The translations under genes were made by a program, and so were the position numbers. Source: Bacteroidaceae bacterium (GTDB lineage: Bacteria > Bacteroidota > Bacteroidia > Bacteroidales > Bacteroidaceae). Taken from it: 36,761 nucleotides of DNA. Shown piece by piece: positions 2,651 through 35,314 of the stretch. Location: NCBI GenBank assembly GCA_024682035.1, contig JAIKZS010000108.1, forward strand, positions 1 through 36,761, in the 5' to 3' direction. Every line of letters begins with the position of its first letter. Within the stretch, counting starts at the first letter, position 1. A model generated the notes under the pieces. It searched no databases. It was not told the origin of the DNA and saw only the letters and a program-made list of their open reading frames with translations.

Positions 2651-2698
2651 AAAATAGTTAAGTTTATTTTGTTCTGTTTTTAGTTTGCTCTATCTTTG
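2651..2698 (+). promoter_or_regulatory. promoter of cobQ with TTTTG (2667-2671), 19-nt spacer, TATCTTTG (2691-2698); preceded by AAAATA-N8-TATTTT box
   Basis: Direct reading AAAATAGTTAAGTTTATTTTGTTCTGTTTTTAGTTTGCTCTATCTTTG. Confidence 0.75.
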
Positions 2699-2702
2699 CA
2701 GC

Positions 2703-4202
2703 ATGAACAATCTACATCCCATCATGTTTGCAGGCACGGGCAGCGATGTTGGTAAGAGTATCATTGCTGCAGGTTTCTGTCGAATATTTAGGCAGGACGG
2801 CTATCATCCTGCACCTTTTAAGGCGCAGAATATGGCACTTAATTCTTATGCTACCCCTGAAGGGCTTGAGATTGGACGAGCACAAGCCGTACAGGCTGAG
2901 GCAGCTGGAATTGCTTGTCACACAGATATGAATCCTTTGCTGTTGAAGCCACAAAGTGATCATACCAGTCAGGTAGTATTGAATGGAAAGCCTATTGGCA
3001 ATCGGCATGCTTATGACTATTTCCGCAAGGAAGGACGAGAGGAACTGCGCCAAGCTGTATGTGAGGCTTATGACAGATTGGCTAATCACTATAATCCCAT
3101 CGTGATGGAGGGAGCTGGCAGCATATCTGAAATTAACCTGCGTGATAGTGATTTAGTGAATTTACCCATGGCTATGCATGCTGGTGCCGACGTTATATTG
3201 GTAGGTGATATTGATCGCGGTGGAGTGTTTGCTAGTGTTTATGGATCTATAGCTTTGCTAAACCCAGAAGAGCGAAAGTATATAAAAGGCATTATCATTA
3301 ATAAGTTCCGAGGTGATTTGCGCTTGTTTGAAAGTGGCGTGAGCATGTTGGAAGAATTATGCAAAGTGCCAGTATTAGGTGTAGTGCCTTATTATAAAGA
3401 TATTTATATAGAAGAAGAGGATAGTGTGGATTTGGCTACGAAATCTATGCAGGCCCAGCAGGGTAAGGTGAATGTGGCGGTAGTTTTGCTGAGACATTTG
3501 AGTAATTTTACCGATTTCAACGTATTGGAACACGACCAAAGGGTGCACCTTTTTTATACTAATAATACGGAAGACATTTTGAAAGCCGATATCATTATTT
3601 TACCTGGGAGTAAAAGTACTATAGATGATTTATATGAACTTCGAAGAAACGGTGTGGCGCAAGCTATTATTCGGGCTCATCGTGAAGGTGCTTCTGTCTT
3701 AGGTATTTGTGGAGGCTATCAGATGATGGGAACAGAGGTGCTTGATCCTGATCATGTGGAAGGTACTATAGAAAGATTGCCTGGGTTGGGATTGCTGCCT
3801 ATTAGTACTTCGATGACAGGAGAAAAGATTACTCGTCAGGATGTTTTTCGATTGGCAGTAGCTGATGTGTCATCTGAAAAGATGAAAGGATACGAAATCC
3901 ATATGGGAGAGACGAATGTCATAAAAGATGCACTATATTCACCTTTGAATGTATTTGTTGATGGTCATAAAGACGGTTATTATGTAGATGCTAAATGCAT
4001 GGGTACATACATTCATGGGATATTAGATAATACTGCTTTCATTGATTTTTTATTGCAACCATGGGGTAAAAAGATGGAGCAAGCGGCAAAGCCTTTTGAC
4101 TATCAAGCATTCAAAGAAGAGCAGTACAACAAATTAGCTGAGCATATTCGTCGGCATGTTGACATAGATAAAGTCTATCAAATATTAATGAATCATGATT
4201 GA
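2703..4202 (+). CDS. cobQ: cobyric acid synthase
   Basis: MFAGTGSDVGKSIIAAGFCRIFRQDGYHPAPFKAQNMALNS, DRGGVFASVYGS, ILPGSKSTIDDL, GICGGYQMMG glutamine amidotransferase triad region; ATG at 2703 preferred over the upstream TTG at 2685, which lies upstream of the -7 element. Confidence 0.95.
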   Translation: MNNLHPIMFAGTGSDVGKSIIAAGFCRIFRQDGYHPAPFKAQNMALNSYATPEGLEIGRAQAVQAEAAGIACHTDMNPLLLKPQSDHTSQVVLNGKPIGNRHAYDYFRKEGREELRQAVCEAYDRLANHYNPIVMEGAGSISEINLRDSDLVNLPMAMHAGADVILVGDIDRGGVFASVYGSIALLNPEERKYIKGIIINKFRGDLRLFESGVSMLEELCKVPVLGVVPYYKDIYIEEEDSVDLATKSMQAQQGKVNVAVVLLRHLSNFTDFNVLEHDQRVHLFYTNNTEDILKADIIILPGSKSTIDDLYELRRNGVAQAIIRAHREGASVLGICGGYQMMGTEVLDPDHVEGTIERLPGLGLLPISTSMTGEKITRQDVFRLAVADVSSEKMKGYEIHMGETNVIKDALYSPLNVFVDGHKDGYYVDAKCMGTYIHGILDNTAFIDFLLQPWGKKMEQAAKPFDYQAFKEEQYNKLAEHIRRHVDIDKVYQILMNHD

Positions 4203-5226
4203 AGGACACGGAGACGACAGTTATCACTTCCAGCATGAAATAGTAATAAATTTCAGCTCAAACATTTATGCTCATGCTAATTTAAAAGGTTTGTATGCTT
4301 ACTTACATGATCGAATGGAAGTGATAAACTCTTATCCAGAACCTGAAGCATTCTCGCTGGAAGCAGAATTAGCTGACTTACTCCATATAAATAAAGATTC
4401 TGTATTGGTAACTAATGGGGCTACCGAAGCCATTTACCTCATTGCTCATGCTTATAGAGGCTTATACGCCCAGGTACTCCAGCCAACGTTTCGTGAATAT
4501 GCTGATGCTTGCGTAATGAATAGTTCTAGGGTGGGGGCTTTGTGGCAACTTCCAAGTGAACGAGAACATTATCTTCTTGATGATGAAGTGCGTATATTAT
4601 GGCTTTGCAATCCCAATAATCCTACTGGTAACTTAGTTCCCAATACTTATCTTCAAGCATTGATAGAAGCCAATCCACAAGTGTTGTTTATAATAGATCA
4701 ATCTTATGAATATTTTGTACAACAACCTTTGTTTACAGCATCTGAGGCAATGAAATTCGAGAATGTCTTGTTACTCCATAGCCTTACCAAACGCTATTGT
4801 GTGCCAGGATTGCGATTGGGGTATATTACGGCTGCTCCCCATATAATGCGGCACCTTCGGACTTATAAAATGCCCTGGTCGGTCAATGCTTTAGCTATCG
4901 AAGCTGGGCATTATTTGTTGCATAACGATATAGAAGGCTTACCTTCAGTAGATTCTTATCTTCGTGAAGCTCAACGCTTAAGAGATAATCTTAATGCACT
5001 CGGTGCACTACAAGTGTGGGAAACTTCTACACATTTTATGTTAGTCCAATTGCGTTATGGTAAAGCATCAGCTTTAAAAAATTGGTTAGCTAATGAATAC
5101 GGAATTCTTATTCGCGACGCATCTAATTTTGAGGGCCTTGATGCCCGTTTCTTCCGTATAGCAGCACAGAAACCAGAAGAGAATGACAAATTGGTAGAGG
5201 CAATTCAAAAGTGGATAATTGAATAA
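4195..5226 (+). CDS. cobD: L-threonine-O-3-phosphate decarboxylase-like PLP aminotransferase (cobalamin pathway)
   Basis: Aminotransferase class I/II fold motifs (TNGATEAIYLIAHAYRG, LCNPNNPTGN, SLTKRYCVPGLRLGY); overlaps cobQ stop and precedes cbiB. Confidence 0.85.
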   Translation: MIEGHGDDSYHFQHEIVINFSSNIYAHANLKGLYAYLHDRMEVINSYPEPEAFSLEAELADLLHINKDSVLVTNGATEAIYLIAHAYRGLYAQVLQPTFREYADACVMNSSRVGALWQLPSEREHYLLDDEVRILWLCNPNNPTGNLVPNTYLQALIEANPQVLFIIDQSYEYFVQQPLFTASEAMKFENVLLLHSLTKRYCVPGLRLGYITAAPHIMRHLRTYKMPWSVNALAIEAGHYLLHNDIEGLPSVDSYLREAQRLRDNLNALGALQVWETSTHFMLVQLRYGKASALKNWLANEYGILIRDASNFEGLDARFFRIAAQKPEENDKLVEAIQKWIIE

Positions 5227-5241
5227 ATAAAGGAGGAAGAC

Positions 5242-6183
5242 ATGTTCATCATTCCATCGTCAATAATCAATGTTCTAGCTGGTTATACGTTAGATCGCTG
5301 TTTGGGAGACCCCTCGTGGTTACCTCATCCCATCGTGCTTTTTGGTAAGATGATTTCGAAAGGTGAACATGCCCTTAATAAGGGTACATACCGAAAAATC
5401 AAAGGTTTTTTGCTCGCTGTTTTTCTTGTCTTGTTGGTCTTTTTCTGTACGCAGTGTATCCTTCAACTATGTGCCATTTTATCTCCTTGGCTTAATTCTG
5501 TGTTACAGATTTTATTAATATTTTATTGTTTAGCAGGTACCACTTTAATTCGCGAGGTGCGTGATGTGTTTTTTGCATTAGATCGTTCGCTGGAAGAAGG
5601 CAGGCAACAGGTGGCACGTATTGTTGGTCGTGACACTACTCAACTTTCTGAGCAAGAAGTACGAAAAGCTGCATTGGAAACTCTTGCCGAAAATTTAAGT
5701 GATGGAGTTATTGCTCCGTTGTTTTGGTATATTCTTTTAGGAGTTCCTGGCATGATGGCTTATAAGATGGTAAATACCCTTGATAGTATGATTGGTTATC
5801 ATTCTGAGCGTTATCTACATTTTGGCTGTTTTGCAGCAAGACTGGATGATGTGGCCAATTATATTCCTGCTCGTTTAACTGCTTTGTTGATGGTGATAGC
5901 ATCTGGTCGTCCTAGTCTCTTACTTTTTGTAAAAAAATATGGTTCTTGTCATGCCAGTCCTAATTCGGGCTATCCAGAATCGGCTCTAGCGGGTATTTTA
6001 GATTGTCGGTTTGGTGGCCCTCACATCTATTTTGGCGAATTGTTTGATAAACCCTATATAGGTAGTAATGATCGTCTGCTTACAACCAATGATATGAAGG
6101 TAGCTATACGTATCAATCGATTGACAGAGCTGCAAATGATAATTATTACCATTGCCCTGCAATATTTTATTCATTGTTGGTAA
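5242..6183 (+). CDS. cbiB: adenosylcobinamide-phosphate synthase CbiB
   Basis: LDRCLGDPSWLPHPIVLFGKMIS, ETLAENLSDGVIAPLFWYILLGVPGMMAYKMVNTLDSMIGY, DDVANYIPARLTAL are hallmark CbiB motifs. Confidence 0.95.
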   Translation: MFIIPSSIINVLAGYTLDRCLGDPSWLPHPIVLFGKMISKGEHALNKGTYRKIKGFLLAVFLVLLVFFCTQCILQLCAILSPWLNSVLQILLIFYCLAGTTLIREVRDVFFALDRSLEEGRQQVARIVGRDTTQLSEQEVRKAALETLAENLSDGVIAPLFWYILLGVPGMMAYKMVNTLDSMIGYHSERYLHFGCFAARLDDVANYIPARLTALLMVIASGRPSLLLFVKKYGSCHASPNSGYPESALAGILDCRFGGPHIYFGELFDKPYIGSNDRLLTTNDMKVAIRINRLTELQMIIITIALQYFIHCW

Positions 6184-6973: not shown

Positions 6974-7654
6974 TCAGAATAAATCGAGTTGATGACTACT
7001 GTCGTAAACTTCTTTCTTGAATTTTAGTAATTCTTTCTTTGAGAGTTTTGTAGAAGGTTTCTTTTCTGCACCTTTAGTGGTAGGATAAACGCCTGTTTGA
7101 CGTAGATATCGATATACGGTAGAATAACTGCGAATATTCAGCAATGCCATGATGCGGCTAACAGGCAAACCATTATCATACAGTTGTCTGCATTGTTGAG
7201 GCTTGTTTTTGTTACGTTTATTCACGCTTCCTTCCTTGCGTCCAAACTTCACGCCCTTTCTTTCAGCTTCCTTACGACCTTCTGATACACGCGCTTTAAA
7301 TACGTCATTTTTAAGAGTCATCAAAGCTTGTGTAATATGTGCTAACACTTGCCCGGTAAGTCCATTTGTGTTAAAGTTATCATCTAACGAAATAAATGTA
7401 ACATTCATATTTACCAGTTCGTTGAGCATTAACAATACTTTTTCTACTTTATTACCTAAGCGTTCAAGGCGACAAACAATAAGTGTGTCACCAGCACGTA
7501 AACTGTTAATACATTTTTTTAGCTTAAGTCTTTCTGCTCGTACACCAGAAAGTTTTTCTTGATAAATGCGTTCGCACCCTAATTCTTGCAACCGCTTCAC
7601 TTGTTGGTCAAGCGCTTGCTCAATTTCACTGCTATATGCATAACCTACCTTCAT
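6974..7654 (-). CDS. serine recombinase/resolvase family protein with C-terminal HTH; several catalytic positions substituted
   Basis: N-terminal resolvase fold (VGYAYSSEIEQ..., EKLSGVRAERLKLKK, RAGDTLIVCRLERLGN), C-terminal GRKEGSVNKRNKNKPQQCRQLYDNGLPVSRIMALLNIRSYSTVYRYLRQ. Confidence 0.88.
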   Translation of the reverse strand: MKVGYAYSSEIEQALDQQVKRLQELGCERIYQEKLSGVRAERLKLKKCINSLRAGDTLIVCRLERLGNKVEKVLLMLNELVNMNVTFISLDDNFNTNGLTGQVLAHITQALMTLKNDVFKARVSEGRKEAERKGVKFGRKEGSVNKRNKNKPQQCRQLYDNGLPVSRIMALLNIRSYSTVYRYLRQTGVYPTTKGAEKKPSTKLSKKELLKFKKEVYDSSHQLDLF

Positions 7655-27380: not shown

Positions 27381-29144
27381 TTATTTCTCGTCACATTGTT
27401 GACAACCCTCCAGTTTCACAATAATGGCACTACAAGCATCCAGTCCAATCACATCACCTTTGCCTTTAGGCAAAATCTTGTACGAGCCTTTGCCAGTAGC
27501 ATAAGCAATAGCAGAAGTTGATGCTCCTTGCGCATGAATTGTCGTTTTTACCTTTTTACCACTGGGGTTGATAGCAATTATATAATCTTCATAATCAGAA
27601 CTGCGTCGATAAACCATTGGGTAGGGCTGTTCCTTGTCGCCCACATAAACCCAAGAACCGTCATTGCCCAAAGCCTCAGAGCCAGCACGCAGTTTCAGTA
27701 AGCCCTTTACGAAATTCAACAAAGAATTTGGATCCTTTTCTTCTGCTTCTACCGTAATCTTACCATTTTCTGTGTTCACCGGCAAGTACAGTTTGTCGGG
27801 CGTAGCCGTAGAAAAGCCAGCCGTTTCTTCTCCCGTCCACTGCATGGGAGTTCTACAACCAGAGCGCGCATTGCTGCCTTCCTTACTTGGCAAACCAAAT
27901 TGTTGTTTCATGCCAATTTCATCACCATAATATATAAAAGGAGTGCCGGGTAAAGTAAGCAAAAAAGACATTGCCACTTTTAGATCTTGCGTGGTGCGAG
28001 GCTCCTGACTCATGCGTTCAGAGTCGTGGTTGCCCGTAGGCAACGATAAGTAGCCATAATTCTTTGTATGCTCATACGTCTGATTAAAAGCCTCGACAAA
28101 CGCCTTTACCTCACCTTGTCCGGCTCTATCGAAATAAGCCTTTGGCTGGGTCGCGCCACCAAAGTTTCTGTTAGCATTCAAGCGGAATAAGTTCATGCTG
28201 GCGCCAGGCGTGCCAGGGCGTCCCCCAATACGGTAGAAATCAATGTCGAAGCCAGCAGGTAACGATTGGTCTGGGTTAAACCACTCAGCAATCAAAGCTC
28301 TGTCGGCAAAGTTCTCATCACGCCATTTACGCATCTCTTGCCAAAGCTTGCTCACCTCTTTTTTATCAGGGTCGTTTTTCACCAACGACGAAGCCAAATC
28401 AACACGAAATCCGTCAACCCCTTTTGAGAACCAGAAGGTCATGATGTCCTTTAACTCTTGTCGCGTAGCTTGTGGACCAGCGGCTGTTACGGGTTGTTCC
28501 CAAGGATGATTAGGGTCTGGATTGGCATAGCCATAATTCAAGGCTGGCTGACTTTCATAGAAATTTTTCTCATAATATTTCGCTCTTGGAGCATTCGCCT
28601 CAACAAACCTTCCAATCGTACTTGCTGAAGGGTCGGGAGCCTCATATCGCTTTTTAATAAGTTCTTTCTCATCCTCTGAAATCTCATCCGTCCATATGTA
28701 GTAATCGCTGTATCTCAAATCCTTACCACTCTTAGATTGCAAGAACCACTCATTCTTGTCGCTTGTATGGCCAGCCACCAAATCCAAACACAGTTTCATG
28801 CCACGCTTATGCAATTCATCAGCCAGCACTACCAAATCGGTGTTGGTACCAAAACGCGGATCCACTTGGTAGAAGTCAATCACATCGTAACCACCATCTT
28901 GCCATCCCGACACATATATCGGATTGAGCCACAATGCAGTAATACCCAACGACTGCAGATAGTCCAGTCGAGAGGTTATACCTGGTAAATCGCCAATGCC
29001 ATTGCCATCACTATCCATATAACTCGATGGATAAATCTGGTAAAACACAGCCTTCTTCAGCCATTCAGGTCCTGCCTCAGCCCTCAAAGAAGCCGGTAGC
29101 AAACAAATGGCTGTCAACCCCCATAAAAAACTCTTTAACTTCAT
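27381..29144 (-). CDS. secreted GH13 alpha-amylase family glycosidase
   Basis: MKLKSFLWGLTAICLLPASLRAEAGPEWLKKAVFYQIYPSSYMDSDGNGIGDLPGITSRLDYLQSLGITALWLNPIY, GFRVDLASS, ALIAEWFNP, LPTGNHDSERMS; start at 29144 chosen because of the signal peptide. Confidence 0.94.
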   Translation of the reverse strand: MKLKSFLWGLTAICLLPASLRAEAGPEWLKKAVFYQIYPSSYMDSDGNGIGDLPGITSRLDYLQSLGITALWLNPIYVSGWQDGGYDVIDFYQVDPRFGTNTDLVVLADELHKRGMKLCLDLVAGHTSDKNEWFLQSKSGKDLRYSDYYIWTDEISEDEKELIKKRYEAPDPSASTIGRFVEANAPRAKYYEKNFYESQPALNYGYANPDPNHPWEQPVTAAGPQATRQELKDIMTFWFSKGVDGFRVDLASSLVKNDPDKKEVSKLWQEMRKWRDENFADRALIAEWFNPDQSLPAGFDIDFYRIGGRPGTPGASMNLFRLNANRNFGGATQPKAYFDRAGQGEVKAFVEAFNQTYEHTKNYGYLSLPTGNHDSERMSQEPRTTQDLKVAMSFLLTLPGTPFIYYGDEIGMKQQFGLPSKEGSNARSGCRTPMQWTGEETAGFSTATPDKLYLPVNTENGKITVEAEEKDPNSLLNFVKGLLKLRAGSEALGNDGSWVYVGDKEQPYPMVYRRSSDYEDYIIAINPSGKKVKTTIHAQGASTSAIAYATGKGSYKILPKGKGDVIGLDACSAIIVKLEGCQQCDEK

Positions 29145-29157
29145 GTTTACTATTATT

Positions 29158-29835
29158 TTATTTCTGCAAAAGGTCAGGTCGTAATCTTTTCGTGCGTTCC
29201 AACGATTGTTCCATTTCCCATTCCTTGATTTTTGCCTCGTTGCCCGACAACAATACTTCTGGCACTTTCCAACCATTGTAGTCAGAAGGACGTGTATAAA
29301 CAGGAGCTGCCAGCAAGTTATCTTGGAAAGAGTCGGAGAGGGCCGACTGCTCATCGCTTATTACTCCTGGAATAATTCGCACAATGGCATCTGCCATCAC
29401 AGCAGCAGCCAATTCACCTCCCGTCAGCACATAGTCGCCAATGCTCACTTCTTTCGTAATAAAATGCTCGCGAATACGGTAGTCAATGCCTTTGAAATGC
29501 CCACACAGAATAATAATGTTTTGCATGAGCGACAGCGAGTTAGCCATTGGTTGACAAAATTGTTCTCCATCGGGAGTAACGAATATCACCTCGTCATATT
29601 CACGTTCCGCTTTCAGTGCATTGATGCATCGTTCCACCGGCTCGATTTTCATTACCATTCCAGCAAAACCTCCGAATGGATAATCATCCACACGGCGATA
29701 TTTGTCCTGCGTATAATCGCGCAGATTATGTATATGAATCTCTGCTAGGCCCTTATCCTGTGCCCGTTTCAGTATCGAGCAATTAAAGAAGCCTTCAATC
29801 ATTTCTGGATAAACCGTAATAACGTCTATTCTCAT
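29158..29835 (-). CDS. trmD: tRNA (guanine-N1)-methyltransferase
   Basis: [103 protein letters not shown]. Confidence 0.97.
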
Positions 29836-30759: not shown

Positions 30760-31056
30760 TTATTTAATGTCAAACAACTTGTAAAAGCCTGTCAAAGTGA
30801 ATATTTTCTGAATTTCACCTTCTACGTGTGTCAGTACCAGCTTACCTCCCTTAGCTACGCTTTCCTTTCTCAGCAGCAGTAATCCACGAAGGCCCAGACT
30901 ACAGATGTAATCCAACTTTGAGCAGTCAATTTCTATACTTTTATCAGCATTTTCTAAAAGAGGTTTTAATTCTTTCATAAAATGTTCAGCTTCGGCTGTG
31001 TCAATCCAGCCCGTCAATGTTCCAATGTAGGAACCGTCTTTTTCAATAATATTCAT
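30760..31056 (-). CDS. STAS domain anti-sigma-factor-antagonist-like protein
   Basis: IEIDCSKLDYICSLGLRGLLLLRKESVAKGGKLVLTHVEGEIQKIFTLTGFYKLFDI; Ser53 aligns with the phosphoacceptor Ser of SpoIIAA/RsbV-type STAS proteins. Confidence 0.92.
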   Translation of the reverse strand: MNIIEKDGSYIGTLTGWIDTAEAEHFMKELKPLLENADKSIEIDCSKLDYICSLGLRGLLLLRKESVAKGGKLVLTHVEGEIQKIFTLTGFYKLFDIK

Positions 31057-31060
31057 ATTG

Positions 31061-32863
31061 TTATTGTAATGGAGTTAACGGATAAATAAAATTCACAATC
31101 AAAATGTTGGCTGCCAGAATGATGAAGTTCATCAATACGCCAACACGCATAAAGTCGCTAAAGCGATAGCCACCAGGACCATACACCAACATGTGTGTAG
31201 GCGACCCAATAGGAGTAGCAAAACTACTGCTGATACTTACCATCAAAGCAATGAGGAAAGGGTAGGGTTCATACCCCAGTTGTTCGGAAGCTTGATACAT
31301 AATGGGGAAGAACATAGCACCAGCAGCCGTATTAGAGATGAACTCTGTAATAAAGGTACCCACCAGACAGATGGCCGTCATGACAACAATCGGATTGGTA
31401 CCGCACACATCAAGTATACCGAAAGCCATACGCTCTGCAATGCCCGTCTTCTGGATGGCTAATCCTAGTACTACAGAACCAGCAAACACCATCAGAATAT
31501 CCCAGTTGATGGCCTTCATTGCTTGATCAACACTACAGCATTTAAAAATTAGCATGGCCATGGCTGCCAGGAAAGCACACTGCAGCAATGGAATAATATT
31601 CATGGCTGAAAGCACCACCATGATCAGCATAATAGTCGAAGAAATCAGTGTTTTCTTACTTATATTAGGCAATTGTGGTGAATCGAAGAACTGTACCATC
31701 GACTTAAGACTATCCATGTTGATTTCCACATTTGGCGAGCTCTCGAACAACAGTGTATCACCAGCTTGCAACAACACCTCTCGTGGCGATTGGTCTATTC
31801 GTTCGCCACTGCGGGCTATGGCCACCAAGGTTAAATTATGGTCTTTTTCAAATGTCAGCTTGCTAAAAGTATTGTTAATCAAGCTACTGCCGAAACTAAC
31901 ATAAGCTGTGCGCAGCTTGCGGTCTTTGTCCAGCTCTTCCATTTTGAAAATATTATGGTCGGCATTCACAAAAGCATGACTCTTCTTCAGTTCCAGCAAT
32001 TCATCAATCTGTCCGGCAAACACCAGTCGGTCGCCACCCATCAGCATCTCATCATCTGGTACAGGCGATAAAATCTTATAATTGTCAAAGTGCTTAATTT
32101 CAATCAGCGAACCACCATTTACATTCGTCAGGCCCGCTTCCGCAATAGTTTGTCCGATATATTCACTGTCTGAAGGAACCAGCAGTTCAATGGTATAGTC
32201 GCTAGTTGCCTCAAAGGCCGATTCTGGAGCCTTCCTATTGGGCAGCAATTTACGCATAGCAATGATACTCAGCACTCCCACGAACAAACAGAACAAACCT
32301 GGAATAGTCGTAGCCAGCACATTCATAACATGGCCCGTCTTTTCTGCATAAAGACCAGATATAATCAAGTTAGGAGGCGTACCGATCAATGTACAAACGC
32401 CACCCATGCCTGATGCATAGCTTAAAGGAATCAATAGTTTTGATGGAGATACATTCAGCTTTTTCGCCCATATCTTGACGATGTTAACGAAGATTGCCAC
32501 CACTGTGGTGTTGCTTAGGAATGAGCTCAGCACAGCCACCGGCACCATCAATCTTACAACCGCCTTGCCATAACTGGAAGGCTGACCAAGTAAATGTTTT
32601 ACAATCCATTGCAGCAGGCCCGTATGCATTAATCCGGCTACCACCACAAACAACACGCCAATGACGATCACAGAGGTAGAGCTGAACCCCGAAAAGGCTT
32701 CTTTCGCATCCAGCACACCCGTTACGAATAAAACACCTATCGCGCCAAGGAATACAAAATCTGACCGTAGTTTGGTAAACAGCAGTACTGTAAACATCGA
32801 GAGCACTGTGATGATTGTAATCCAAGCGTAAATATTAAATCCCAAAAATAAAAATGAGTCCAT
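31061..32863 (-). CDS. SLC13/DASS-type permease with internal RCK_C (TrkA_C) domains
   Basis: KLLIPLSYASGMGGVCTLIGTPPNLIISGLYAEKTG, FITEFISNTAAGAMFFPIMYQASEQLG, SSSFATPIGSPTHMLVYGPGGYRFSDFMRVG; two central RCK_C-like segments (IELLVPSDSEYIGQTIAEAGLTNVNGGSLIEIKH..., ...IDQSPREVLLQAGDTLLFESSP). Confidence 0.94.
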   Translation of the reverse strand: MDSFLFLGFNIYAWITIITVLSMFTVLLFTKLRSDFVFLGAIGVLFVTGVLDAKEAFSGFSSTSVIVIGVLFVVVAGLMHTGLLQWIVKHLLGQPSSYGKAVVRLMVPVAVLSSFLSNTTVVAIFVNIVKIWAKKLNVSPSKLLIPLSYASGMGGVCTLIGTPPNLIISGLYAEKTGHVMNVLATTIPGLFCLFVGVLSIIAMRKLLPNRKAPESAFEATSDYTIELLVPSDSEYIGQTIAEAGLTNVNGGSLIEIKHFDNYKILSPVPDDEMLMGGDRLVFAGQIDELLELKKSHAFVNADHNIFKMEELDKDRKLRTAYVSFGSSLINNTFSKLTFEKDHNLTLVAIARSGERIDQSPREVLLQAGDTLLFESSPNVEINMDSLKSMVQFFDSPQLPNISKKTLISSTIMLIMVVLSAMNIIPLLQCAFLAAMAMLIFKCCSVDQAMKAINWDILMVFAGSVVLGLAIQKTGIAERMAFGILDVCGTNPIVVMTAICLVGTFITEFISNTAAGAMFFPIMYQASEQLGYEPYPFLIALMVSISSSFATPIGSPTHMLVYGPGGYRFSDFMRVGVLMNFIILAANILIVNFIYPLTPLQ

Positions 32864-32871
32864 ATATTTTA

Positions 32872-33381
32872 CTAAGTTTCAATAATTTTAGTTAGTCTTA
32901 GTATATTATAGCCATCGGCTGTACGCTCATACGAAATCGAGTCCATAATTGACTTCACAAGATGAATACCCAGTCCGCCCAACTTACGTTCACTCAGTGG
33001 AGCATCCAAGTCCGATACATTATATTGTGTGGGGTCAAAAGGCATTCCTTTGTCACTAATCTTAATCATTATAACCCCGTCAGCCTTATCAACAGCCAGT
33101 TCCAGAAGGCCATGCGTGCCCTTGGGGTAGGCATAGCTAACCACGTTGACCACCCATTCTTCTACAGCCAAGTTAAGCATTTTGAAAGTTTCATTGTCAA
33201 TGTTGAATCCTGTACATACCTCCTTAAAGAAGTCATGCATGCGTTTCACCTCACTCATTTCATTTTTCAGGATAATGTGTGGCAGGCCAGCAGAGCTTTT
33301 CCACTGTATATATAATGGAGCATACTTGTCATCAGAGGTATTCCGATTGTCAATCAACTGCGTTTTTTCTGAATTCTCCAT
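32872..33381 (-). CDS. RsbW/SpoIIAB-like HATPase_c_2 anti-sigma factor kinase homologue
   Basis: N-box LAVEEWVVNVVSYAYPKG, G1 KISDKGMPFDP, G2 LGGLGIHLVKSIMDSISY. Confidence 0.93.
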   Translation of the reverse strand: MENSEKTQLIDNRNTSDDKYAPLYIQWKSSAGLPHIILKNEMSEVKRMHDFFKEVCTGFNIDNETFKMLNLAVEEWVVNVVSYAYPKGTHGLLELAVDKADGVIMIKISDKGMPFDPTQYNVSDLDAPLSERKLGGLGIHLVKSIMDSISYERTADGYNILRLTKIIET

Positions 33382-33577
33382 GCAACTAATCTAGAAATTC
33401 AATTGTTATTGAGGGTGCTAATTTACAAGTTATTTTTTACATAAGCAACAAAAAACGATTGTCTATTTGTTACATAGCTATTGGAAATCGTAAAAAGTTA
33501 CTTTTTTTGTCAATCTGCCTATAATATATGAGTAAAATAATATATCTTTGCAATATTGTCGAAAAAGAATAAGATGT

Positions 33578-35314
33578 ATGGCCATTGATGATTCAACAAA
33601 GGAAAGTGTGTGGAAGCGTTTAAAGGCTTTCTTTAAGAAACAGACTAATCTGGTTGTCATCATTGTAGCTGCAGTCTTGTTAGAGACTGCTTTAGGTATA
33701 ATGTTCTATTTGCAGCGTAATCTTACATCCAAATTCTTAAATGAAATTACTGACAGCGAAATGTTGGTCATATCCCTTGGCGTTCGCAACCATTTTACCA
33801 AAATAGAAGCCACACTCGATAACATGGCATGGATGTTGACAGATCGCCTTGACAATCCCAATTCCTTGTTCCAGGAAAGCTACAAATTGTTGGAAAATAA
33901 CCCTAATATCTATGGTTGCAGCATTGCCTGCATTCCCAACCTTTTCCCTGACAAAGGCTATTGGTTCGAGCCCTATGCCGTTCGCAAATCCAATGGATCC
34001 ATTGAATCCTCACAGTTGGGATCGGCCAATCATGACTATACGAAATCTAGTTTTTACGTAGAAGCTATTGCACGTGGCGAGGGGCATTGGAGTGAGCCTT
34101 ACCTTGACTCTGATGGCGCTAAGACCATGATTACCAGCTATAGTGTGCCTATTCGCAACAAACAGAATAATATTGTGGCTGTTATCAGTGCCGACATTTC
34201 ACTCGATTGGGTAGCTGAAGTCATGAACAATACATTGCCCCTCGAGCATTCTAAGCGTTTCCTTATCAGCTCTCAATACACCATGCTGGGAGGCGAAAAC
34301 AACTTACTGTTCAACACCATAGTGCAGCATTTAAAGACTAACGATGTAAGCAATGGCTACTTCGAGTTGAACGATGAAAATGTACACGTATTCTTTGATC
34401 CAATAGGAGGAAAAACCGACTGGCTAATTATTTGTGCGGTGGACGAAGATATTTTTTTCGGTTTTTTAAAAAAACGACAATTATTCATGCTCCTATTGGT
34501 AGGTGTTTGCTTTCTGCTGCTGTATTACATTGTACAGCGTACCTCGCGCAACCAAAAGCAATATAACAAGGTACATGCCGAGAAAGAGCGTATCAGCTCA
34601 GAGCTGCAAGTGGCCCACGAGATACAGCAAGGCATGTTGCCAAGCAGCAGCCTGAAGCTCAAAAATGTTGAGGTGTATGGTTCGTTGGTACCTGCCCGCG
34701 AGGTGGGTGGCGATACGTTCTATTACCACATCGTCGATGATTATCTTTATTTCTGCATCGGCGATGTCAGTGGCAAGAGTACCCCCAGCGCCTTATTTAT
34801 GGCCTCCATCAGTTCATTATTCATTGCCTTTTCGAAACAAAAAGATAATCCTGCCGCCATCATGCGCAGAATTAATGCGATATCAACTCCTGGCAATGAT
34901 ACCTGCTTGTTTATCACCCTGTTCATTGGCATGCTACACTTGCCAACAGGTCGTTTGCTTTATTGTAATGCTGGACATGATTCTCCTCTCATCAAGAGTG
35001 ATGGCTTTTGGAGCACGTTAACTTCAGCATCGCAAATACCAGTTGGTTTGGTGGAAAATATGCAATATGATGAGCAGGAAGTATATTTGGCACCCAGCAG
35101 TGAAATTTTCCTTTATACCGATGGTGTTACTGAAGCTGTCAATAGCAGTCGTCAACTCTTCGGGATAGATCGGTTGGAGCAAGTGCTGGCAACTTGTACC
35201 GATGTAGATCCGCAGGCTTTGCAAGATGCGGTGACCAAAGCTGTGCATCAATTTGTAGGCAATGCTGAGCAGAGTGATGACCTTACCATGCTTGTCATTC
35301 ACTATAAGCCATGA
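33578..35314 (+). CDS. membrane-anchored Cache-domain PP2C-type (SpoIIE/RsbU) serine phosphatase
   Basis: N-terminal TM, Cache-like extracellular region (KGYWFEPYAVRKSNG..., GHWSEPYLDSDGAKTMITSYSVPIRNKQNNIVAVISADISLDWV), second TM, then SpoIIE domain (LQVAHEIQQGMLPSSS, VGGDTFYYHIVDDYLYFCIGDVSGKSTPSALFMA, FLYTDGVTEAVN, QSDDLTMLVI); ATG 33578 preferred over TTG 33548. Confidence 0.94.
   Translation: MAIDDSTKESVWKRLKAFFKKQTNLVVIIVAAVLLETALGIMFYLQRNLTSKFLNEITDSEMLVISLGVRNHFTKIEATLDNMAWMLTDRLDNPNSLFQESYKLLENNPNIYGCSIACIPNLFPDKGYWFEPYAVRKSNGSIESSQLGSANHDYTKSSFYVEAIARGEGHWSEPYLDSDGAKTMITSYSVPIRNKQNNIVAVISADISLDWVAEVMNNTLPLEHSKRFLISSQYTMLGGENNLLFNTIVQHLKTNDVSNGYFELNDENVHVFFDPIGGKTDWLIICAVDEDIFFGFLKKRQLFMLLLVGVCFLLLYYIVQRTSRNQKQYNKVHAEKERISSELQVAHEIQQGMLPSSSLKLKNVEVYGSLVPAREVGGDTFYYHIVDDYLYFCIGDVSGKSTPSALFMASISSLFIAFSKQKDNPAAIMRRINAISTPGNDTCLFITLFIGMLHLPTGRLLYCNAGHDSPLIKSDGFWSTLTSASQIPVGLVENMQYDEQEVYLAPSSEIFLYTDGVTEAVNSSRQLFGIDRLEQVLATCTDVDPQALQDAVTKAVHQFVGNAEQSDDLTMLVIHYKP

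Follow-up and report, generated by a model that had tools for sequence, protein, structure and literature searches.

What does a partner switch act on when no sigma factor accompanies it? The question is raised by contig JAIKZS010000108.1 from a Bacteroidaceae bacterium (36,761 nucleotides; this whole stretch is called the window below), in which the genes for an RsbW/SpoIIAB-like HATPase, an SLC13/DASS-type carrier and a STAS-only protein form a single minus-strand run with gaps of 8 and 4 nt, and the gene for a membrane Cache-SpoIIE phosphatase diverges 196 nt upstream of the HATPase gene. An earlier reading of the sequence, the original prediction, had described these four open reading frames (ORFs), their strands, spacing and domains, and the absence of a sigma factor nearby. 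ORF coordinates and DNA bear out the first three of these features and Pfam the domain calls; the ORF list of the window and Pfam revealed no sigma gene and no other type of anti-sigma gene.

The recurrence of this gene set in related genomes supports the view that its four parts constitute a functional unit that is conserved. We tentatively favour, at somewhat less than an even chance, the interpretation that the unit is a partner-switching module dedicated to an SLC13/DASS anion carrier in place of a sigma factor, with the switch controlling the carrier. No description of a carrier-linked partner switch was found among open-licence papers, and the data suggest a mode of transporter control, or of listening through a transporter, that has not been described so far.

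Conservation of the unit and census of sigma factors

The carrier subfamily was found in 61 of the 399 genomes of the family, representing 13 of its 30 genera. A HATPase and/or STAS gene lies within 1.6 kb of 57 of the 93 carriers, in every one of these 13 genera, and phosphatase, HATPase and STAS genes all lie within 3.2 kb of 27 carriers from 12 genera. The parts are arranged as HATPase-SLC13-STAS, PP2C/HATPase fusion-SLC13-STAS, PP2C/HATPase-STAS-SLC13, SLC13-STAS-HATPase, STAS-HATPase-STAS-SLC13 or, with separate genes, PP2C-HATPase-SLC13-STAS. The phosphatase-HATPase fusion stands directly before SLC13 in many genera, and such fusions tie kinase and phosphatase to the membrane. A chance or strain-specific neighbourhood, the latter an outcome that would have refuted the original prediction, was rejected on this family survey: the same set recurs across 12-13 genera, its parts co-occurring in at least 12 of them in several orders. 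Among 43 genomes picked for having the carrier, 40 of the 77 strong HATPase_c_2 matches are located no more than about 3 kb away from it, against 0.3 expected under a rough uniform placement that is uncorrected for kinship and genome choice. An association reaching across the phylum was rejected, given that no partner-switch gene was found within 1.5 kb of a related carrier in 29 loci from other classes, most of which have cysQ-like neighbours.

In the carrier tree, linked sequences stand on all deep branches and the linkage label changes 20 times, compared to 32.6 times when shuffled; this is most simply read as an old association that has repeatedly come apart. The window HATPase clusters with the HATPase parts of three operons of genus g41 (SH-like approximate likelihood ratio test [SH-aLRT] support of 98), where the HATPase is fused to the phosphatase and precedes an SLC13 carrier that shares 76-78% identity with that of the window and is one of its nearest sequences. 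The best full-length matches of the window phosphatase within the set are other SLC13-linked phosphatase-HATPase fusions (L209, 40%, and L176, 39%, over about 587 aa). The window phosphatase was rejected as the split-off part of a g41 fusion, since its catalytic domain, in contrast with the HATPase, does not group with g41.

The source genome, a metagenome-assembled genome (MAG) of 2.0 Mb in 174 contigs, carries a second complete HATPase-SLC13-STAS operon on another contig (C115, locus L017). Its only two HATPase_c_2 genes over the cut-off are those of the two SLC13 operons. Three STAS matches exceed the cut-off, two of them stand-alone proteins of the same operons and the third part of a 565-aa ORF that is SulP carrier-like as judged by sequence. 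The genome encodes four SpoIIE phosphatases, and the three outside the window are Cache-HAMP-SpoIIE proteins without an adjoining kinase or STAS gene. Close relatives of the C115 carrier are present in 15 of 160 genomes of the genus, and 12 of these 15, the source genome included, have the HATPase-SLC13-STAS operon. In wider flanks, six C115-type loci share a chromosomal site between a PfkB-like/S41-protease-like pair and comF/nrdDG/topA-like genes (names from sequence inspection). The second operon, the phosphatase-HATPase fusions, and the motif losses and the RelA/SpoT and AspT-RCK_C neighbours described below all go beyond the original prediction.

A hidden sigma-B/F-type sigma factor was rejected as the target, the census of the 74%-complete source genome having returned a 286-aa RpoD as its sole sigma70_r3 protein. 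A single sigma70_r3 protein was likewise found in 11 of 12 further carrier-bearing genomes, and two in the remaining one (G298). Neither the recovered genome nor near-complete relatives contained a sigma-B/F-type sigma factor, the survey covering proteins with region 3, which extracytoplasmic function (ECF) sigma factors lack.

Kinase, STAS protein and carrier

The features of the unit are collected in Table 1; the Pfam assignments of all four proteins exceed the family cut-offs.

Table 1. Features of the HATPase-SLC13-STAS operon and the divergent phosphatase gene (window positions)
Feature	Position	Strand	Basis
RsbW/SpoIIAB-like HATPase_c_2 serine kinase, 169 aa	32872..33381	-	Pfam HATPase_c_2 2.6e-23
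SLC13/DASS-type carrier, 600 aa, two TrkA_C (RCK_C) domains mid-protein	31061..32863	-	Pfam CitMHS 2.8e-80, Na_sulph_symp 1e-18, TrkA_C 1.8e-15 (two stretches)
Carrier, first SNT motif, S117-N118-T119	32507..32515	-	Aligned to first SNT of VcINDY
Carrier, second SNT motif, S510-N511-T512	31328..31336	-	Aligned to second SNT of VcINDY
Carrier, first TrkA_C/RCK_C domain, residues 225-293	31985..32191	-	Pfam
Carrier, second TrkA_C/RCK_C domain, residues ~320-378	31730..31906	-	Pfam stretch; edges from relatives
STAS-only RsbV/SpoIIAA-like protein, 98 aa	30760..31056	-	Pfam STAS 4.1e-14; PDB profile match SpoIIAA, RsbV, TM1442
STAS Ser53, predicted phospho-acceptor	30898..30900	-	Column of SpoIIAA Ser58; invariant in 13/13 operon STAS proteins
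Membrane Cache (PDC)-SpoIIE PP2C phosphatase	33578..35314	+	Pfam SpoIIE 1.5e-43, MCP-like_PDC_1 4.5e-21
Phosphatase, extracytoplasmic PDC/Cache sensor, residues 104-213	33887..34216	+	Pfam; nearest solved structures 3lic, PctA chemoreceptor
Phosphatase, SpoIIE catalytic domain, residues 387-576	34736..35305	+	Pfam; solved relatives RssB 3es2, SiaA 6k4e
TATCTTTG, match to Bacteroides -7 consensus, 27 nt before phosphatase ATG	33543..33550	+	Motif scan

The HATPase can be aligned to RsbW (6m36) and SpoIIAB (1til/1l0o), with its catalytic pair E75/N79 falling on E46/N50 of SpoIIAB and a DxG box at residues 110-112; in an alignment of the 13 operon HATPases, E75, N79, D110 and G112 are retained in all. 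Its scores lie under the NCBIfam equivalog cut-offs for RsbW/SpoIIAB, indicating a protein that is related to these kinases but not an orthologue. The STAS protein falls marginally under the TIGR00377 cut-off (51.8 vs 53.45 bits). Two other identities were rejected for it: MlaB, because it reaches only 15.1 bits against the NF033618 cut-off of 90 and no adjoining mla genes were recognised, and a SulP-type domain, because it is encoded by a separate ORF and the carrier belongs to CitMHS/Na_sulph_symp rather than Sulfate_transp. By analogy with the RsbU/W/V families, we infer a phosphorylation cycle on the STAS protein.

The unit resembles RsbU-RsbV-RsbW and SpoIIE-SpoIIAA-SpoIIAB in its three protein families, kinase residues, acceptor serine and SpoIIE phosphatase domain. 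In contrast with those systems, which act on sigma-B and sigma-F, it is not accompanied by a cognate alternative sigma factor in the recovered genome, and the SLC13 carrier takes the place of the sigma gene in the operon. It also differs from RsbU/V/W in that, among its relatives, phosphatase and kinase are often fused into a single membrane protein.

Upstream of the phosphatase gene, a motif scan returned a match to the Bacteroides -7 promoter consensus, TAnnTTTG, as weak evidence of a promoter, with no accompanying -33 box. We preferred the ATG at 33578 as the start of this gene because an ORF begun at the TTG at 33548 would overlap the -7 box.

Both halves of the window carrier and both of its SNT motifs, which are intact, align with VcINDY. 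In DASS carriers, these motifs coordinate the carboxylates of the substrate and contribute to the Na+ sites (PMC7553777). The window carrier differs from VcINDY and other DASS/SLC13 carriers by the two RCK_C domains inserted between its halves and by its operon with a partner switch. The first RCK_C domain weakly matches that of the cyclic di-AMP (c-di-AMP) receptor BusR (7b5u, E 2.8e-4); a diadenylate cyclase (DAC) is present in all 13 genomes examined and hence does not discriminate for c-di-AMP as the RCK_C ligand. Related SLC13-RCK_C carriers from other classes of the phylum (L239-L267) share 32-36% identity with it and are alike in TrkA_C, as confirmed in L239, but they differ in lacking a partner switch within 1.5 kb and in adjoining mostly a CysQ-like gene, often with a CysD- or CysC-like one (ORFs recognised by eye). 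These neighbours make sulfate or a similar di-anion our best guess for the ancestral substrate.

Two sister clades, one of them the core operon clade of the genus, have lost both SNT motifs; together they comprise 28 carriers on one branch (support 100), in which the first motif has changed to GC- or NS-type residues and the second to SNV/SDV. The C115 paralogue in the source genome (L017) is without intact SNT motifs, as is its clade, and its match to VcINDY is much weaker than that of the window carrier. HATPase/STAS genes still adjoin 21 of the 28 carriers, and such linked, SNT-less proteins may fit a sensor role or a new substrate. That motif erosion accompanies linkage was rejected, however, as the two show no association over the whole tree (independent pairs, median p of 1, with erosion changing about four times). 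These paralogues provide a natural test of carrier against sensor.

Target of the switch

In the mechanism we propose, an extracytoplasmic ligand, which in the original prediction may be the substrate of the carrier, would make the Cache-SpoIIE phosphatase more or less active. The STAS protein would be phosphorylated at Ser53 by the HATPase and dephosphorylated by the phosphatase. Depending on the phosphorylation state of STAS, either STAS or the freed HATPase would dock on a cytosolic face of the carrier, at its RCK_C pair, and set carrier activity; both the docking and the control of the carrier are conjecture. Several lines of evidence point to this interpretation: the linkage is conserved in 13 genera and at least five gene orders; both HATPases and both stand-alone STAS proteins of the source genome adjoin SLC13 genes, with RpoD as the sole sigma70_r3 protein; the kinase and acceptor residues are conserved; and the window HATPase and carrier both have close kin in the same g41 operons. 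Furthermore, a second family of RCK_C carriers (Asp-Al_Ex), unrelated to the first, recurs in the same clusters, which hints at a role for RCK_C.

A precedent for a STAS protein binding a transporter subunit is provided by MlaB, which binds and stabilises its partner and whose binding is weakened by a phosphomimetic at Thr52 (PMC7367683). MlaB in MlaFEDB is comparable as a free STAS protein that acts on a transporter and has its phospho-acceptor position at the interface (PMC7367683), the carrier contact of the window protein being a prediction. MlaFEDB differs in being an ABC transporter for which no kinase or phosphatase is known. The original prediction had drawn its analogy from SLC26/SulP carriers, in which a STAS domain is likewise linked to an anion carrier; there, however, STAS is fused, whereas the window STAS is separate, carries an RsbV-type acceptor and has a kinase of its own, and the window carrier is of the CitMHS/DASS type. 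We therefore keep that analogy as a lead, and regard MlaB as the better precedent.

Other observations weigh against control of the carrier. No partner-switch gene lies within 1.6 kb of 36 of the 93 carriers, including those of the same genus that are closest to the window carrier (61-77% identity). Furthermore, 37 of the 77 RsbW-like HATPases in the 43 carrier-bearing genomes lie away from SLC13, beside other genes; with about half of the HATPases so placed, the switch is modular and its target may be a different one. Neither the STAS nor the phosphatase of the window is nearest to its g41 counterpart, and the combination of a free kinase of g41 kinship with a different, divergent phosphatase and a non-g41 STAS indicates that the unit has exchanged parts. 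Finally, the genome itself is an incomplete MAG.

A broader version of the carrier-control interpretation, possible but held with less confidence, is that a family-wide, sigma-independent switch regulates, or is fed by, RCK_C secondary carriers. Here, phosphorylation of a detached STAS protein by an RsbW-like kinase, with a Cache phosphatase often fused to that kinase working against it, would set carrier activity, and the SNT-less paralogues would have become pure membrane sensors of the same circuit. RsbU/W/V proteins are common in these gut and rumen bacteria, and the conserved physical linkage to one carrier subfamily offers a concrete candidate for their target where there is no sigma-B/F. 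Should the carrier prove to be what the switch acts on, partner switching would reach beyond transcription to the direct control of secondary transport, and the unit would be a phospho-controlled counterpart of the fused STAS of SLC26/SulP carriers.

Alternatively, the switch could act through RpoD on transcription or through an enzyme with a RelA/SpoT domain on a second messenger, with the carrier co-regulated or accessory. We consider this somewhat unlikely, and keep it mainly because RelA_SpoT genes recur at partner-switch modules and SLC13 (16 loci), in orders such as HATPase-STAS-RelA (L008), RelA-kinase-like ORF-HD-PP2C/HATPase-SLC13 (L210/L211) and PP2C/HATPase-STAS-RelA (L272); one comparison of neighbour order covered 11 of 20 loci. 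The many HATPases located away from SLC13 are also consistent with it, as is Chlamydia, where RsbW binds the housekeeping sigma66 and RsbU senses alpha-ketoglutarate (PMC11619594). The Chlamydia proteins resemble the window unit in belonging to a Gram-negative organism without sigma-B and in having a phosphatase with a periplasmic sensor, but they differ in this binding of sigma66 and in that no carrier has been described in the module (PMC11619594). However, an output of this kind leaves unexplained both the attachment of the carrier across 13 genera and several rearrangements and the fact that the only two kinase-STAS pairs of the genome adjoin carriers, and the window itself showed no recognisable RelA gene.

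The carrier could instead be the input, a transceptor that controls the cycle of kinase, phosphatase and STAS through substrate binding or the state of its RCK_C domains, with another protein as the output. The retention of HATPase/STAS genes at SNT-less carriers and the weak VcINDY match of L017 argue for such a role. Yet neither SNT motif is missing from the window carrier, motif loss shows no association with linkage over the tree, altered motifs may signify an altered substrate, and the phosphatase already has a Cache sensor of its own; we regard this alternative as unlikely. It is improbable that STAS is a constitutive, MlaB-like subunit of the carrier, with the HATPase tuning assembly only and the phosphatase incidental: a free STAS protein is indeed a transporter subunit in E. 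coli (PMC7367683), and STAS alone adjoins the carrier in L190, L220 and L228, but the window protein fails the MlaB model and the fusion of phosphatase to HATPase in many operons implies that the phosphatase belongs to the unit. Chance adjacency or an assembly artefact, which a draft MAG in this many contigs might invite, is scarcely credible given that the set recurs, in fixed and shuffled orders, in dozens of independent assemblies, one of them of 3.7 Mb in 3 contigs (G190, L189).

Recurring neighbours and other observations

RelA_SpoT-domain genes, HD hydrolases, Asp-Al_Ex carriers with TrkA_C and OPT transporters all recur beside partner-switch modules. A RelA_SpoT gene adjoins SLC13 and/or a HATPase-STAS pair in L210, L211, L223, L227, L232, L199, L207, L084, L085, L008 and L272, and overlaps the STAS gene by 4 nt in L008 and L211. 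AspT/YidE-type carriers (Asp-Al_Ex with TrkA_C) lie near SLC13 and switch genes in L194, L198, L201, L202, L205, L206, L221, L222 and L225. Six loci (L011-L016; e.g. L012:5772-12665) share a conserved run of RelA_SpoT, HD_4, a kinase-like ORF, a PP2C/HATPase fusion, STAS and an OPT oligopeptide transporter, in which a partner switch is joined to another type of carrier and to alarmone-type enzymes.

Further arrangements were observed around switch genes. In L271, L273, L274, L275 and L279, PP2C/HATPase-STAS is followed by an ORF of about 450 aa and then by an open-ended ORF of more than 1300 aa resembling a condensation-type protein of non-ribosomal peptide synthetases (NRPS). Two loci from large genomes of the same genus (L101 and L102) have a STAS-HATPase fusion, an NMT1-like periplasmic binding protein, a phosphatase and a free HATPase in a row, without SLC13.

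Elsewhere in the window, cobalamin-biosynthesis-like ORFs (CobQ-, CobD- and CbiB-like; 2685-6183) follow a TonB-receptor-like ORF on the opposite strand (171-2309), and their orthologues in L084 are separated by about 3 kb from an SLC13 carrier. A resolvase/invertase-like ORF (6974-7654) is flanked by potassium-channel-like and porin-like genes. The alpha-amylase ORF at 27381-29354, taken from its first ATG, overlaps the trmD ORF (29158-29835) by about 200 nt, and its true start is probably an internal ATG preceding a signal peptide.

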